Position numbers and translations under genes: made by a program
Source: Bacillota bacterium
GTDB lineage: Bacteria > Bacillota > Sulfobacillia > Sulfobacillales > Sulfobacillaceae
Assembly (NCBI GenBank): GCA_021784595.1
Contig: JAJYHT010000100.1
Span: 1 to 64,000 of the forward strand
Direction of reading: 5' to 3'
Length of the DNA: 64,000 nt
Shown here: piece after piece, positions 37,549 through 53,466 of the stretch
Layout of the letters: every line of letters begins with the position of its first letter
Numbering within the stretch: position 1 is the stretch's first letter
Notes under the pieces: generated by a model
Databases searched by the model: none
What the model was told of the DNA's origin: nothing
The model's input: only the letters and a program-made list of their open reading frames with translations

Positions 37549-38973
37549 ATGGGGGAAAGCTACGATTTAACGATTGTCGGTGGCGGCACTGCGGGGCTGA
37601 CCGTTGCCAGCGGCGCAGTGCGATTTGGTGCCAGGGTGGCATTAATAGAACGGGACCGGATGGGGGGAGATTGCCTAAATTGGGGATGTGTTCCCACCAA
37701 AGCGCTGATACGGTCGTCCCGGATTGCCGCCTCATTGCGGAACGCTAGCGACTATGGGATAGTGACCAACGGCTATGAGGTGAACTTTCCCGCGGTAATG
37801 AACCGCGTAAGAAGAACCGTTGAGATGCTTTCAGCAGCGGACTCTATCGAGCGGTTCCAAGGATTGGGCGTAGAGATCATATTAGGCAATCCCGAATTTC
37901 AAAGCGCTCATGAGATTCGTATCGGAGATCGGCGCATCACGTCGAGTAAAGTGGTTATCGCCACAGGGTCCCGAGCTGCCGTTCCTCCAATACCGGGAAT
38001 AAGAGAAACGGGATTCATCACCAATGTCGAAGCGCTAAAGCTCCAGAAATTGCCACGAAATTTAGTGATATTAGGGGCGGGACCCATCGGGTTGGAGTTT
38101 GCTCAAGCGTTTGCAAGGCTCGGATCGCATGTTACTGTCATCGAAATGTTCCCTCAAATTTTGCCCCGAGAAGATGGGGAAGTGGCAGAGGTCGTGAAAA
38201 GTGTGCTCTCGGGGGAAGGCATTCAATTTTTGCTAGGCAGCAAAGTTGTTCAGGTAACGGATGGGCAACCTGGTAAAATGATTGTCATAGAGCAGTATGG
38301 GCAGAAAATGACTGTATCATGTGATGAAGTGTTTGTTGCAACGGGAAGACTTCCAAACCGTGAGATCACCGGTCTTGAAAATGTCGGGGTTGCCTCCACG
38401 AGGACGGGCATTCGTGTAGATAGGTTCTTACGTACTACGGTTCCCCACATATATGCAGCCGGTGATGTCAACGGAGGGTTGCAATTTACCCATGTGGCTG
38501 GTTATGAGGGCAGAGTGGTGGTCAGGAACACTCAATTTCCTTTACGACAACGGACAAATTACCGGGTCGTGCCATGGACGATCTATACCGACCCCGAGGT
38601 GGCCCACGTTGGATTGACGGAACACGAGGCGAAAGAGCATGATGCCTCAGTCCATGTTTACACGGGAAATTTTCAGGATGTGGACCGGTCGGTCATTGAT
38701 GGAGAGACGGATGGTTTTGTTAAGGTGATCGTCGACAAAAAGGGGCAAATCGTTGGGGGACATGTGGTCGGAGCGCATGCGGGTGAATTGATTCAGGAAC
38801 TGGCGTTTGCTATGCATCATCATATTCCACTAGGCAGGATTTCTCAGGTAATTCATGCATATCCCTCCCGAGTGGAAGGTATCCGCAATGTCGCCGATCT
38901 ATACTGGCGTCAGAAGTTGTTTGACGGGAACACGGCTCAGTGGCTCAAGCGATTCAGCCGCTGGTCACGATGA
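37549..38973 (+). CDS. FAD-dependent pyridine nucleotide-disulfide oxidoreductase
   Basis: The 474-residue protein (ATG 37549 after GGAAGAAGGACGTGTC) is a class I disulfide reductase: TIVGGGTAGLTVASGAVRFGA (FAD site), GGDCLNWGCVPTKALIRSSR with redox C42 and C47, LVILGAGPIGLEFAQAFARLG for NAD(P)H, and HIYAAGDVNGG. It resembles MerA without the HMA head, but the C-terminus (WLKRFSRWSR) lacks the mercury-binding Cys pair. The His-Pro-Glu-like end (VIHAYPSRVEG) is also changed (AYPSR), as in many MerA-like reductases of unknown substrate. Confidence 0.88.
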   Translation: MGESYDLTIVGGGTAGLTVASGAVRFGARVALIERDRMGGDCLNWGCVPTKALIRSSRIAASLRNASDYGIVTNGYEVNFPAVMNRVRRTVEMLSAADSIERFQGLGVEIILGNPEFQSAHEIRIGDRRITSSKVVIATGSRAAVPPIPGIRETGFITNVEALKLQKLPRNLVILGAGPIGLEFAQAFARLGSHVTVIEMFPQILPREDGEVAEVVKSVLSGEGIQFLLGSKVVQVTDGQPGKMIVIEQYGQKMTVSCDEVFVATGRLPNREITGLENVGVASTRTGIRVDRFLRTTVPHIYAAGDVNGGLQFTHVAGYEGRVVVRNTQFPLRQRTNYRVVPWTIYTDPEVAHVGLTEHEAKEHDASVHVYTGNFQDVDRSVIDGETDGFVKVIVDKKGQIVGGHVVGAHAGELIQELAFAMHHHIPLGRISQVIHAYPSRVEGIRNVADLYWRQKLFDGNTAQWLKRFSRWSR

Positions 38974-45439: not shown

Positions 45440-47335
45440 ATGGATCAAACAAAGTACCACATGGACATTGAAGGGATGACCTGCACTGATTGCGAGCACC
45501 ATGTGACAAAAGCTTTGGAGTCGGCGGGGGCGAACAATGTGCAGGCCAATTTTCGGCGAGGCGAGGCTATTTTCTGGGCTCCCGCGAACTTCTCCGAGCA
45601 TGCTGCGCGACAGGCGGTAGAGCAGGCGGGATATCGGCCGCAAGATATTGATGTTGTCGCTTCGCAGGATGCAGCCGGCACGGCTATGACATACGATATG
45701 GACATTGAAGGGATGACCTGCACTGATTGCGAGCACCATGTGACAAAAGCTTTGGAGTCGGCGGGGGCGGACAATGTGCAGGCGAATTTTCGGCGAGGGC
45801 AAGCGACGTTTATCGTGCCGGCGAACTTTTCGTGGAATGCGGCCCGAGACGCTATTAGCAAAGCAGGTTATACTCCGGGTGCAGCACGGCCGCAAGCAGC
45901 AGGCGACACGCCTCAGGCGGGAATACATTCCCAGAACGATTATGAACTGGTCGTCATTGGTTCGGGAAGTGCTGCTTTCGCGGCCGCGATAGAAGCTCGG
46001 CAAGCGGGAGCCCGGGTAGCTATGGTTGAGCGAGGCACGATTGGCGGCACGTGTGTCAATGTTGGATGTGTCCCCTCTAAAACTCTTTTGCGCGCCGCTG
46101 ATTTGCATCATGGAGCCGTACATAATCCGTTTGTTGGACTGCATACCAGTGCTGAACCGGCCGATTTGAGCACGCTGGTTGTAGAAAAGGATCGCTTGGT
46201 AGCGGCGCTCCGTCAAAAGAAATATGAAGATTTGCTTCCGGAATATGAGATTGACCTGATTGCAGGCGAGGCACACTTTGTCGACGAGGCGCGGCTGGCA
46301 GTGGGAGATCGCGTGCTGACCGCTCATCGATATTTGCTAGCTACTGGGGCTAGCCCGCGGATTCCTGCCATTCCCGGATTGGATGCCGTAGAGTATTTGA
46401 CCAGTACTTCAGCGCTTAACCTCACCCAACGTCCAAACCATCTGATTGTTATCGGGTCAGGATACATCGCGCTCGAACTCGGCCAATTGTTTCGCTACTG
46501 GGGATCGCACGTGACGATGATGCAACGCGGAGCAGCGCTGACGCCCAACTATGATCCCGAAGTGCGGGCGGTCATTGCGGAGATGATGGCCGACGAAGGC
46601 ATTGAGGTAATGACTGGCGTCGTGTACGAACGAGTCGAGCAAAAGGGATCGGAAAAGCTCGTCCATTTGACTGTGAACGGTGAAAAGCGGGTGGTGTCCG
46701 GTGATGCGTTGTTGGTCGCTGCTGGGCGAGATCCTAACACAGACGCGTTGAATCTGGACGCGGCTGGAGTCAAGCGGGGATCCCATGGCGAACCCCAAGT
46801 CGACGCCACCTTGCGCACCGCCAATCCGAGAATTTACGCGGCGGGCGACGTCACTCTAGGACCGCAATTTGTTTACGTTGCTGCTTACGAAGGAAAGGTA
46901 GCGGCCAAAAATGCCCTGGATCTCAATGCTACGCCTCAAACTGTGGATCTGAGTGTGGTGCCCATGGTGACATTTACGCACCCGGCCATCGCGTCGGTTG
47001 GGCTTACCGAGGATGCTGCGGTACAACGCGGATTACGGGTAAGATCCTCCGTACTGCCCCTAGAGGCCGTTACACGGGCTTTGGCCAATCGCGAGACCCG
47101 AGGCGTGTTCAAAATGGTGGCGGATGAGGACACTGGGCGTATTCGGGGTGTACAGATTGTGGCCGAAAATGCGGGCGATGTCATCTACGCAGCGCAACTA
47201 GCCGTGAAATTTGGGTTGACGATTCATGACTTGAACGATACTTTGGCGCCATATTTGACGATGGCCGAGGGATTGAAGCTTGCTGCACTGACATTTGACA
47301 AGGATGTGGATAAACTGTCCTGTTGCGCGGGCTAG
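45440..47335 (+). CDS. merA: mercuric reductase with two N-terminal HMA domains
   Basis: MerA reduces Hg(II) to Hg(0) with NADPH. The 631-residue protein has two heavy-metal-associated domains, each with GMTCTDCEHH (C15/C18 and C94/C97), followed by a flavin disulfide reductase core: LVVIGSGSAAFAAAIEARQ, GGTCVNVGCVPSKTLLRAAD with the redox pair, HLIVIGSGYIALELGQLF, and RIYAAGDVTLGPQFVYVAA. The C-terminus ends LSCCAG, so the mercury-delivering CC pair (C628, C629) is present. The two HMA copies are nearly identical at DNA level. The following gene starts 28 bp after the stop and may be co-transcribed. Confidence 0.95.
   Translation: MDQTKYHMDIEGMTCTDCEHHVTKALESAGANNVQANFRRGEAIFWAPANFSEHAARQAVEQAGYRPQDIDVVASQDAAGTAMTYDMDIEGMTCTDCEHHVTKALESAGADNVQANFRRGQATFIVPANFSWNAARDAISKAGYTPGAARPQAAGDTPQAGIHSQNDYELVVIGSGSAAFAAAIEARQAGARVAMVERGTIGGTCVNVGCVPSKTLLRAADLHHGAVHNPFVGLHTSAEPADLSTLVVEKDRLVAALRQKKYEDLLPEYEIDLIAGEAHFVDEARLAVGDRVLTAHRYLLATGASPRIPAIPGLDAVEYLTSTSALNLTQRPNHLIVIGSGYIALELGQLFRYWGSHVTMMQRGAALTPNYDPEVRAVIAEMMADEGIEVMTGVVYERVEQKGSEKLVHLTVNGEKRVVSGDALLVAAGRDPNTDALNLDAAGVKRGSHGEPQVDATLRTANPRIYAAGDVTLGPQFVYVAAYEGKVAAKNALDLNATPQTVDLSVVPMVTFTHPAIASVGLTEDAAVQRGLRVRSSVLPLEAVTRALANRETRGVFKMVADEDTGRIRGVQIVAENAGDVIYAAQLAVKFGLTIHDLNDTLAPYLTMAEGLKLAALTFDKDVDKLSCCAG
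45461..45798. repeat. tandem duplication of the HMA-coding segment in merA
   Basis: 45461-45561 and 45698-45798 are the same 101 bp with only two differences, offset by 237 bp (79 codons). The flanking 136 bp between copies are much more diverged, which points to recent duplication or gene conversion of the metal-binding part only. Confidence 0.9.
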
Positions 47336-47363: not shown

Positions 47364-47756
47364 ATGCGGGACCAGGAATGGCGACCAGTGTGTGACATTT
47401 GTGGCAGACCGCCATTTTGGGGCCGTTCGCTATTTCGGCTGTCGCACTCTCAGAGCACCGCCTGGCACTGTGAGCGGTGTGCTATTCGTCATCCCCGGTT
47501 GGTACGGCAGGCAGTGAAAACGTCTCTAGTGGTTGGAACATTGCTAGCGTTAATTAACCACGGGAGTATCTATTGGACGGGCCCGATCACACTCGGGCTG
47601 GTTGCCAAAACGGGACTAACTTATTGTGTGCCTTTTGGTGTCGCTATGTGGGGAGCGTTGATGGCGAACCGCGGGCAGCCGCCCGTGGAAAATGCTAGAC
47701 CGTCCTTCACCACGATTTCTGCCCTATCACGAGAACCGTCAGATCAACAATTGTGA
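47364..47756 (+). CDS. NrtS-like membrane protein with N-terminal CxxC pairs
   Basis: ATG 47364 is set by GGAGGCACCGTCCA. The 130-residue protein has VCDICGRPPFWGRSLFR and WHCERCAIRH, a zinc-ribbon-like head with two CxxC pairs. Two hydrophobic segments follow: VVGTLLALINHGSIYWTGPI and TGLTYCVPFGVAMWGALMA, which match the NrtS pattern (VVGTLL.LIN.GD...LTYLVPFCV...GA). NrtS was described in nitrate/nitrite transport. After merA, a role tied to mercury or thiols is suggested by context only; the Cys in YCVPF lies in a membrane segment. Confidence 0.65.
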   Translation: MRDQEWRPVCDICGRPPFWGRSLFRLSHSQSTAWHCERCAIRHPRLVRQAVKTSLVVGTLLALINHGSIYWTGPITLGLVAKTGLTYCVPFGVAMWGALMANRGQPPVENARPSFTTISALSREPSDQQL

Positions 47757-49815: not shown

Positions 49816-49959
49816 GTGAACAACAAACTGACGACGGCGACAAAACGTCTGGTTCGGACAAACACTGGGGATGCAGAATCCACTGCGGTGTTGGCGCTGC
49901 CTAGCAGAGTATACGGATGGCCAGAGAATCGTTCATTCGAAGGAGTGTGTGTGCGATGA
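49816..49959 (+). CDS. 47-residue ORF coupled to the ArsR gene
   Basis: A strong AGGAGGAAATTTTTG lies before the GTG at 49816. The frame gives a 47-residue product containing TTATKRLVRTNTGDAES, ending ...FEGVCVR with a stop that overlaps the ArsR ATG as ATGA. The product has no recognisable domain. It may be a leader peptide that tunes arsR translation, or a remnant. The ribosome site and exact overlap argue that it is translated. Confidence 0.5.
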   Translation: MNNKLTTATKRLVRTNTGDAESTAVLALPSRVYGWPENRSFEGVCVR

Positions 49960-50339
49960 TTATTGTGGGCCAAGATCGCGAAGAATTGCTAGCTGCTTTT
50001 TGGCAGGCGTTGAGCCACCCGATTCGACTGCGTGTATTGGAACATCTTCGCGAAGCGGGTCCGCTGAACGTGGGGGAACTAGTGGAACGTCTAGGCATAG
50101 GCCAGGGACATCTATCAAATCATTTGGCGTGTTTAAAGAGCTGTGGACTAGTGCAAACTGAACCGCGCGGTCGATTTGTGTACTATCACATTGGCGATGA
50201 GCGAGTCGACACACTACTCGAAATCGGCAGTGCCATCCTGCAAGATCATCTTGATGGTGTAGCGGCTTGCCGAGTAGTCCATCCTGGGTCCAAATCCCGG
50301 AATAAAGACGAATTTTTCCTTGAATCGAAAGGCGAGTAG
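49956..50339 (+). CDS. ArsR-family regulator near the mer genes
   Basis: The 127-residue protein starts MIIVGQDREELLAAFWQALSH, then PIRLRVLEHLREAGPLNVGE, LGIGQGHLSNHLACLKSCGL and GRFVYYHIGDERV: a full ArsR winged helix. The cysteines in LACLKSCGLV (about residues 62 and 66) and ACRVVHPG near the C-terminus (about 107) are candidate ligands; Cys in or beside the recognition helix is typical of metal-sensing ArsR proteins. GAAGGAG precedes the ATG. It is 2.6 kb from merA with no MerR gene in view, so it may be the mercury regulator; this is inference. Confidence 0.85.
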   Translation: MIIVGQDREELLAAFWQALSHPIRLRVLEHLREAGPLNVGELVERLGIGQGHLSNHLACLKSCGLVQTEPRGRFVYYHIGDERVDTLLEIGSAILQDHLDGVAACRVVHPGSKSRNKDEFFLESKGE

Positions 50340-50360: not shown

Positions 50361-50407
50361 GTATCAACCACCATCACCGTGACCTTGGTCACGGTGATGG
50401 TTGATAC
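50361..50407. terminator. long inverted repeat between convergent genes
   Basis: GTATCAACCACCATCACCGTGACC pairs with GGTCACGGTGATGGTTGATAC, leaving a 3-nt bulge in the left arm and a TT loop. It lies between the stops of arsR (50339) and the SEC-C mini-gene (50412) and is probably their shared terminator. Confidence 0.65.
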
Positions 50408-50411
50408 CGGA

Positions 50412-50540
50412 TTACTTAGCTCCGCAACATTCATTCGCCGGTTTGCCCGACCCACATGCACATGCGGTGTCATGCTGAGCTCCGCAACACACGCTGGCGG
50501 GTTTACCAGAACCACAACTGCAAAGGTCTTCTTTTGCCAT
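50412..50540 (-). CDS. 42-residue protein made of two SEC-C-like motifs
   Basis: Read on the minus strand from ATG 50540, preceded by GGAGGAAACCTTCT. The product is MAKEDLCSCGSGKPASVCCG, a short linker with a His, then CACGSGKPANECCGAK. Both halves carry the C-x-C-G-S-G-K-P-x-x-x-C-C zinc motif of the SEC-C domain, best known at the C-terminus of SecA and in several small or fused proteins. Nine residues of nineteen in each half are identical to the other. There is no catalytic part. It is a plausible small metal-binding protein, convergent to an ArsR regulator and divergent from tusA. Confidence 0.8.
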   Translation of the reverse strand: MAKEDLCSCGSGKPASVCCGAQHDTACACGSGKPANECCGAK

Positions 50541-50879
50541 AGAAGGTTTCCTCCCGTCTACGCTGACATGGGCGCATTATGACATAGGATGTCAGAGCGT
50601 TCTGTAACCGAGACTACAGAGCATCGGGTCCGGCATACGGATCTGGAAGTACTCAGTGCAAAGCACGATTAAAGCAACCATAACGATCTTTAGTCAACAA
50701 TTCACAGTTTATACGGAATATTAGGTAGTATATATAATAGTGTGAAGTATCTTACATACACACCCGGGATTAAGTGGTAGTGTCACGATAGAGCGTGCAA
50801 TTTTGTCGGATGGGACAGGGAGCCTGTTTCCTTAGGCAACCTATTTCTTATCTAGCTTGTATAGAAGGGGGGTGTCAAT
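50541..50879. promoter_or_regulatory. divergent promoter region of the SEC-C gene and tusA
   Basis: About 340 bp. A TATAAT at 50733-50738 lies in the AT-rich run TATATATAATAG and could serve as -10 for tusA-dsrE, although no good -35 stands at 17 bp. No gene is seen. The minus-strand promoter for the SEC-C gene should be in 50550-50650. Confidence 0.35.
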
Positions 50880-51131
50880 ATGGATGATCAAACCAGCACT
50901 GCTACTATTGCAGTCAAGATAGATGCTTCGGGATTGACATGCCCAATGCCTGTGGTTCGGGCTAAAAAGGGAATTTCCAGCATAGAGGTGGGCCAACTCA
51001 TGGAAATTATCGCTACAGATGCGGGGGCCATGGCGGATTTTGCGGCATGGACCCGGGCGACCGGGAATGAATTATTGTCTGGGGAGCGACAGGGTGAGTT
51101 CTTTCGCTTTGTCATTCGGCGTCTAAAGTAG
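50880..51131 (+). CDS. tusA: TusA-family sulfur carrier
   Basis: The 83-residue protein has the TusA fold with VKIDASGLTCPMPVVRAKKGI, where the Cys in the TCPxP motif (about C21) carries persulfide sulfur, and then VGQLMEIIATDAGAMADFAAW. Start: ATG 50880 after AGAAGGGGGGTGTCAAT. TusA hands sulfur to partners such as DsrE; in sulfur oxidisers tusA-dsrE pairs relay thiosulfate- or sulfide-derived sulfur. The dsrE-like gene starts 9 bp downstream. Confidence 0.92.
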   Translation: MDDQTSTATIAVKIDASGLTCPMPVVRAKKGISSIEVGQLMEIIATDAGAMADFAAWTRATGNELLSGERQGEFFRFVIRRLK

Positions 51132-51139
51132 AGGGGGAG

Positions 51140-51523
51140 ATGGAGATGGATCGTGTGGCCATCATCGTAAGTCAAGATGGGTTAGAGACGGCCTTTAAGG
51201 CGCTTAACGTCGCAATGGCGGCCGTGGCAATGGATGCCGATGTGCATGTGTTTTGTACATTTGGGGGCCTCTCGTTGTTGCGTCGGTCCCTCGACTACCC
51301 AGTACCTGCGTCGTTGGAGCCTTTTCGTGATCAGTTGGCGGCGTTGCCGGGCCCAGAGGCGTTAAGAGCGATGGCGCTAGAGTCAGGGGTCCAATTTATC
51401 GCGTGCCAAATGACCATGGACCTGATGGGGATCACAGCTGACGATTTAATCGAAGGGATACCAGTGGCGGGGGCGGCGACTTTTCTTAGCGAAGCCCAGG
51501 GCAGTACTACAGTGACTTTTTAA
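51140..51523 (+). CDS. DsrE-family sulfurtransferase subunit
   Basis: The 127-residue protein (ATG 51140 or 51146) has RVAIIVSQDGLETAFKALNV and VAMDADVHVFCTFGGLSLL at the N-terminus and VQFIACQMTMDLMGITADDL, with the conserved Cys of the DsrE/DsrE2 group (C in IACQMTMDLMG). GAGGGGGAG precedes the start. It follows tusA closely, so the two form a sulfur-relay operon. No rhodanese or hdr genes are next to it in this window. Membrane segments are absent. Confidence 0.88.
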   Translation: MEMDRVAIIVSQDGLETAFKALNVAMAAVAMDADVHVFCTFGGLSLLRRSLDYPVPASLEPFRDQLAALPGPEALRAMALESGVQFIACQMTMDLMGITADDLIEGIPVAGAATFLSEAQGSTTVTF

Positions 51524-52347: not shown

Positions 52348-53385
52348 TTAGGGAATGGTCACCCATCGATTGCTGGCAAACTTAGGGAATGTGTGGAGAA
52401 TGGCTCCGTTGGACAAATTCACTACGACGCTTTCATCAAGGTTTTCGACGGTGACCAAGGCGCTGTTGCCTCCTGGCAAGATGGCCAAACCACTCAGCTT
52501 ATTGCCGCCACTGGCAGGGTTAGCGTTTATGGCTACTTCTCCTAGGTATTTGTCCTTTGATGCCGAAAATTCGAGAATATGGCCTGAAAATCCCGCTGCA
52601 TACACCGTATTATGATGAGGGCCAACCGCTAACTGCATGAAACCTGCAGTGGCTGCAGGGATGTCGGCATAGCTGAATTGGCTATCCACTTCTGGAGTGG
52701 CCATGGTGGTTATGGCATCGGTACGCGGATTCAACGCGGTCATGACGCCAGACTGGATATCAGCGGCGAAAATCTGTCCCCGTGCCCAGACCATGTCGCC
52801 GATTTGAGGAACTGGGTAGGTATTTAGGATTTGCCCGGTATGCAAATTGATTGCGGTAATGGTCTTATCCATATTGCCTCCCACGTAAGCGACCTGTCCA
52901 TTTGGACTGGTGACTAGAGCGTTGCCTCCGACAGGGTCTGTGAAGAGTTCCTGATGGGTCTTGAGACTATAGGCCGCCAAGGCACTGCCTGACATTACCA
53001 GCAAAAGGTGACTTTGGGGCACGACATGGCCAATCCGGCCACCGGCCAGGGATGGGAACTCCCCTGTGGTATTTAGGGTGGAACTGTTTAAGATGTAGGT
53101 GGTGCCTCCAAAGGTAGGAACATAGATACTGTGCGTGGCTGATGAATATCCCACAAAAAAGCTGTTACCGGTTTCGGTTTTGGCCTGCCCGTAGTATCCT
53201 GTGCGAGCGCTGCTGGGATGAAGCGTCCAAGAAGCCAAGGTTCCAGGCCCCGGGCCGGTTACCGGTGCTGGAAAGGCGCCGACGATTTCAGTGCCAGATG
53301 CTATTCGATGGTGAGGCACAGGAGACATGAGCGATAAGGTAGACAATGCGAGTACTGATGCGGTTAGGGAACGACCTAAAAACAT
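52348..53385 (-). CDS. secreted beta-propeller (YVTN-like) protein
   Basis: ATG 53385 follows TTGAGGAGGAGTCCC; the frame extends five codons further. The 345-residue protein starts with a Sec signal (LTASVLALSTLSLM). Repeats with the YVTN pattern follow: THSIYVPTFGGTTYILN, NGQVAYVGGNMDKTITAIN, HHNTVYAAGFSGHILEF, GNSALVTVENLDESVVVN. This suggests a six- or seven-bladed surface or extracellular propeller. No catalytic residues or metal motifs stand out. A palindromic operator lies upstream at 53467. Confidence 0.82.
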   Translation of the reverse strand: MFLGRSLTASVLALSTLSLMSPVPHHRIASGTEIVGAFPAPVTGPGPGTLASWTLHPSSARTGYYGQAKTETGNSFFVGYSSATHSIYVPTFGGTTYILNSSTLNTTGEFPSLAGGRIGHVVPQSHLLLVMSGSALAAYSLKTHQELFTDPVGGNALVTSPNGQVAYVGGNMDKTITAINLHTGQILNTYPVPQIGDMVWARGQIFAADIQSGVMTALNPRTDAITTMATPEVDSQFSYADIPAATAGFMQLAVGPHHNTVYAAGFSGHILEFSASKDKYLGEVAINANPASGGNKLSGLAILPGGNSALVTVENLDESVVVNLSNGAILHTFPKFASNRWVTIP

Positions 53386-53466
53386 GGGACTCCTCCTCAA
53401 ATAGAGATACTTTTCACGAAGAACGGACCTTTTCCTGATGGGTGACGCTATCTAACTCTATAAACT

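Follow-up and report, generated by a model that had tools for sequence, protein, structure and literature searches.

Bacterial metallothioneins of the SmtA/BmtA type are short, cysteine-rich proteins that occur in a metal-resistance context. The SEC-C motif (PF02810), known from the C-terminal metal-binding domain of SecA, from YecA and from YchJ, is usually seen as the tail of larger proteins. In the metal-binding domain of SecA the metal is coordinated by the pattern CXCX8C(H/C), and the domain serves as an interaction module (PMC6620043). It binds Zn or Fe, and the authors of that study cite work according to which the ligand inside the cell may be iron (PMC6620043). For the stand-alone TRASH proteins of archaeal mer operons a function in mercury trafficking has been proposed, and these proteins are reported as never seen in bacterial mer operons (PMC3466566). 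Repression of mer by ArsR-type regulators is known in Sulfolobus and in Streptomyces (PMC3466566). In the open-access literature SEC-C is rarely mentioned in any relevant sense; 'SEC-C' and 'mercury' co-occur in a single plasmid sequence paper, and in this literature we found no description of a free tandem SEC-C family, nor of SEC-C together with metallothionein and small protein. We have analyzed here a stretch of 64,000 nucleotides from a member of the Sulfobacillaceae (hereafter the window), which harbors a gene for a very small SEC-C protein close to genes of mercury resistance and sulfur transfer.

The tandem SEC-C mini-protein and its family

The gene lies on the minus strand at 50412..50540, stop codon included, and its 42-residue translation reads MAKEDLCSCGSGKPASVCCGAQHDTACACGSGKPANECCGAK*. 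The first SEC-C unit, CSCGSGKPASVCC, covers residues 7-19 (50484..50522, minus strand) and the second, CACGSGKPANECC, residues 27-39 (50424..50462, minus strand); 7 linker residues separate them and there is no other domain. The Pfam profile PF02810 matched two stretches of the protein with 28.4 bits (E 1.5e-6), above the gathering score of 20.4, and by its sequence the protein is a member of the SEC-C family. The NCBIfam scan gave weak matches only, to SEC-C-bearing proteins. A ribosome-binding site, GGGAGGA, is located at 50549..50555 on the minus strand, and its GGAGG is separated from the ATG by 9 nt. The original prediction of a minus-strand frame with a strong GGAGG site, an ATG and two SEC-C-like units as its only content was thus accurate in coordinates, strand, length and motif. 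Each unit has all four cysteines of the CXCX8C(C/H) ligand pattern. The four cysteines of either unit, eight in total, are invariant across the homologues in two alignments of 25 and 32 sequences, partly by construction since the degenerate scan pattern itself demanded most of them. An AlphaFold2 model has a short helix after each GSGK turn, giving a turn-helix per unit, but with a pLDDT of 66.6 the model is uncertain. Its best structural match in the PDB, the YchJ zinc finger 9l6b_A, is not significant (E 1.4).

Around 40 other genomes encode stand-alone two-unit homologues of 35-60 aa. They are patchily distributed and usually occur once per genome (exactly one copy in all 16 genomes examined). 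Their hosts are Sulfobacillia, Actinomycetes, groundwater Deltaproteobacteria, Aminicenantes, Armatimonadetes, several candidate-phyla bacteria and Micrarchaeota, with taxon names as given in the records and many of the loci on MAG contigs. A search of 257 Gb of prokaryotic contigs with a degenerate pattern for two tandem units returned 54 stretches, of which just under 40 encode such short proteins; because the pattern starts with TGCGG the family is undercounted. Relatives of the same family or order (G030, G016, G041) have stand-alone two-unit proteins with 61-65% identity to the window protein, while the homologues of G027, G096, G119 and G005, the last with one and a half units, are more distant. 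A copy is also present in a MAG of S. benefaciens. The family is rare, with one hit in 398 sampled genomes of the window's phylum, and 6 in 395 and 1 in 297 in two other phyla. A version with three tandem units is found in a Peregrinibacterial locus (L113, 2318-2506). In L084 (5272-5751) a protein of 159 aa, in which several SEC-C-like units come after a hydrophobic N-terminus, is encoded beside a P-type ATPase akin to the copper ATPases found at other loci.

With only 42 codons, and with no two-unit homologue found in genomes of the same genus, the frame might be suspected to be a spurious ORF with a chance motif. However, close homologue pairs have dN/dS values of about 0.06-0.2, at synonymous sites near saturation, and this low ratio together with the recurrence of the stand-alone form in some 40 other genomes argues that the ORF did not arise by chance. 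The idea is refuted at the family level, and we give it practically no weight for the window; judged from this conservation, the 42-residue ORF is a real gene. A full AGGAGGT ribosome site precedes 13 of the 21 loci with a readable start outside the candidate phyla, and at least 6 of 7 positions are matched in 19 of the 21. The full sites suggest that the family is strongly translated, and the ribosome sites likewise speak against a spurious ORF. A plasmid, phage or mobile-element gene was considered and rejected, as neither 72,556 plasmid records nor 50,697 phage records held a full-length match to the mini-protein; three pattern matches on viral contigs were low-complexity frames and were discarded. 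A defense gene was likewise rejected, the PADLOC matches being weak (E 0.02 and 0.13).

Genomic neighborhood in the window and across the family

In the window, the mini-protein gene is convergent with a gene for an ArsR/SmtB metalloregulator with a CLKSC pair (49917..50339, plus strand; NF033788 90.6 bits, cut-off 55). The gap between the two genes is 73 bp, and the real start of arsR is probably the ATG at 49956. Further away, at a distance of 3.1 kb and on the opposite strand to the mini-protein gene, merA encodes a mercuric reductase (45440..47335, plus strand; TIGR02053 587.9 bits, 1.5e-176, cut-off 454) whose N-terminal heavy-metal (HMA-like) repeats are seen in the translation. Divergent from the SEC-C gene are a TusA sulfur-carrier protein (50880..51131, plus strand; PF01206 5.1e-20) and a DsrE/DsrE2 family protein (51140..51523, plus strand; PF13686 3.9e-27). 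These profile matches confirm the neighbors that had been named from the sequence, an ArsR regulator, tusA/dsrE and, at more distance, merA. Between the convergent SEC-C and arsR genes lies a 47-bp near-perfect inverted repeat, detected as an opposite-strand self-match (50361..50407, not assigned to a strand); the region folds with -91.5 kcal/mol (z -3.9). It was rejected as an intrinsic terminator, since it is a hairpin without a T-run and the terminator scan gave no match. The window also has a second frame for a MerA-like flavoprotein (37561-38898; 391.8 bits, under the MerA cut-off). An NrtS-like nitrate/nitrite transporter gene is found near three mini-SEC-C loci, namely at 47364-47756 in the window (NF038050 40 bits, cut-off 25), at 7907-8278 in L033 and at 5848-6147 in L148.

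The window ArsR is probably the mer repressor, because in eight genomes (G027, G011, G022, G040, G024, G031, G039 and G012) a relative of its subfamily is encoded 66-730 bp from MerA. Of 10 loci in the window's class, 4 encode a bona fide MerA within 6.5 kb of the mini-SEC-C gene, where 0.04 would be expected (P ~3e-8). These loci are the window itself (G000), G016, G119 and G022, the last with a single-unit form; the 6.5 kb limit was a post hoc choice, and the window and G016, which have additional genes in common, may represent one event. The proximity is therefore suggestive, not final. About 54 MerA loci were detected in the class, and only at 4 of them is the mini-SEC-C gene close by, so that it is not a fixed part of mer. 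The upstream regions of merA, arsR and the SEC-C gene showed no operator in common, and a shared ArsR operator was rejected, as the number of shared 8-mers is about that expected by chance. The two loci that share merA and the mini-SEC-C gene also have in common a gene for a secreted beta-propeller-like protein with a weak BamB/DUF6923 match (window 52348-53400; L034 9821-10795), and the shared genes of the window and L034 are possibly one transferred island.

For about 43 family loci, we clustered all ORFs up to 2.6 kb away and scanned them against Pfam. The commonest neighbor is a CRP/FNR-type regulator, present at 11 of the roughly 43 loci in several phyla. As the CRP-linked genomes carry only 1-5 such regulators, 0.3 would be expected; the linkage has P ~8e-15 if loci are independent and ~4e-9 when the loci are reduced to lineages (6 of 20 by a rough count). 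In 11 of 12 loci inspected the regulator gene is upstream on the same strand, ten of them having a gap of 67-936 bp; the twelve include L153, where the gap is just under 2.6 kb. The CRP/FNR genes are accompanied by cytochrome or thiol-redox genes, and not by metal-resistance genes. In Deltaproteobacteria, genes for a SoxA/TsdA-like cytochrome c containing NPC repeats and, behind it, a multihaem cytochrome follow the mini-SEC-C gene. Loci L144, L145 and L150-L155 form a conserved deltaproteobacterial cluster of this kind, most of them with the CRP regulator, in which KNPCAxKNPC repeats precede the SoxA/TsdA-type cytochrome c. Heavy-metal P-type ATPases are encoded near L035, L037 and L160 (25 bp upstream in L037), MerR genes near three mini-SEC-C loci, and thioredoxin, DsbD-like and MerT-like genes at L157. 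L145 has a DsrE gene immediately upstream and L151 one in the vicinity, and three are directly downstream in L158, so that with the window DsrE recurs in three phyla. Many copies from the candidate phyla (CPR) are placed among housekeeping genes.

Putative function and competing readings

Since each unit provides four cysteine thiolates, two bound metal ions per protein are most likely. We propose that it is a small cytosolic protein in which two zinc-knuckle-like units on a short linker would serve as a two-site buffer or carrier for thiophilic (soft) metals. The resting metal might be Zn or Fe, which could give way to soft ions such as Cu(I), Cd(II) or Hg(II). In the manner of a metallothionein, the protein would keep thiophilic metal off other thiols and hand it on to the detoxification machinery, in the window MerA under an ArsR-type repressor, and its synthesis may be induced by metal or redox stress. 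Such a role would match what has been proposed for the stand-alone TRASH protein in the mer operons of Sulfolobus. We favor a buffer or carrier on account of eight thiolates within 42 residues, the strong ribosome sites and the metal-resistance neighbors, and give this reading about an even chance of being correct. Against it stand the CRP/FNR regulators with their cytochrome or thiol-redox genes as the commonest family setting, the CPR copies among housekeeping genes, the small share of class MerA loci with the gene nearby and the lack of a common operator in the three upstream regions. The original prediction had suggested a minimal metal or persulfide buffer in this island. A minimal tandem SEC-C protein in a metal and sulfur setting is indeed what we find, with an ArsR of a mer-linked group as neighbor, merA at a distance of 3.1 kb and DsrE genes that accompany homologues in two other phyla. 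However, the protein is not peculiar to the island, and because the family is scattered and its commonest neighbor is a CRP/FNR-type regulator, any function has to be framed more broadly.

The linkage to CRP/FNR-type regulators, mostly just upstream on the same strand, and the thiol-redox and cytochrome genes alongside would also fit a zinc-finger adaptor that is switched by metal or redox state. Loss of metal or thiol oxidation would alter the fold and hence the binding of a partner, such as the neighboring CRP regulator, RNA polymerase, the ribosome or RNA, and the output would be signaling instead of buffering. The metal-binding domain of SecA is an interaction module as well (PMC6620043), and the best, though weak, fold match of the model, 9l6b, is titled a ROS-sensing transcription factor in its PDB entry. 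Yet there is no CRP gene beside the window gene, the linked CRP proteins are devoid of the N-terminal cysteines of FNR, and in both alignments no residues outside the motifs are conserved that could form a partner surface. We consider such an adaptor rather unlikely, but keep it as an alternative.

The TusA-DsrE pair divergent from the window gene and the DsrE genes at L145, L151 and L158 raise the idea that paired cysteines take up and pass on sulfane sulfur, the protein then carrying or buffering persulfide or zero-valent sulfur. However, DsrE and TusA are absent from most loci, the recurrence of DsrE is a plain count, and in solved relatives the motif is a structural metal site; a sulfur carrier seems improbable to us. 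As SEC-C is the tail motif of SecA, the protein could also be an accessory of the Sec pathway, a detached tail that binds SecB or ribosomes on behalf of a tail-less SecA. SecA without a SEC-C tail is indeed encoded in four Sulfobacillia genomes with one- or two-unit mini-SEC-C genes (G016, G019, G022 and G030; loci L167, L171, L175 and L179). In contrast, the SecA of the window genome keeps its own SEC-C and ends in NDPCPCGSGKKYKRCHG, and the same holds for G027, G005, G096, G119 and others. Among 17 genomes none had a SecB scoring above the cut-off, E. coli serving as the positive control, and the Micrarchaeota genome G547 has a mini-SEC-C gene and no SecA. A detached SecA tail or SecB partner is thus disfavored and in our opinion highly improbable.

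Returning to the buffer or carrier, the data tentatively outline an undescribed class of bacterial and archaeal mini-proteins, in which a tandem of all-cysteine SEC-C units would be a free two-metal buffer or carrier. The class would have spread horizontally, with a CRP-type regulator as its typical control, and Sulfobacillia would have adopted it as a bacterial counterpart of the archaeal mer TRASH protein. We hold this wider picture to have somewhat less than an even chance.

Relation to known metal-binding proteins

A conserved free form implies that the SEC-C motif can be a protein alone, in metal, sulfur and redox settings. A system of 42 residues allows the metal, redox and partner functions of SEC-C to be probed without SecA. 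Should mercury or copper be its cargo, the protein would supply the small thiol carrier that is missing from bacterial mer loci controlled by ArsR.

The mini-protein shares with SecA, YecA and YchJ the metal knuckle CxCGSGKxYxxC(C/H), above the curated cut-off of PF02810, and the same motif is present in the solved relatives 1tm6, 1ozb, 1sx0 and 9l6b, which include the SecA tail and YchJ zinc fingers. Unlike in the usual SEC-C proteins, the motif here is the whole protein, in tandem and not the tail of a larger protein. Both units are of the Cys4 type, in contrast to the Cys3His tail of the window genome's own SecA. To the SmtA/BmtA metallothioneins it bears a resemblance in being short, cysteine-rich, probably abundant and placed in a metal-resistance setting. 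However, each SEC-C unit would be a separate site of the mononuclear type instead of a multinuclear cluster, and the Pfam and NCBIfam scans of the mini-protein gave no match to metallothionein families, only to SEC-C or SEC-C-bearing ones. The TRASH protein of Sulfolobus mer is likewise a small stand-alone thiol metal-binding protein near merA and an ArsR-type regulator, metal binding being predicted for the mini-protein. It differs in its motif and archaeal host and is a member of the mer operon, whereas the window gene runs opposite to merA and is convergent with arsR. The motif itself is already known; what appears to be new is its free tandem Cys4 form with CRP, metal or sulfur neighbors.
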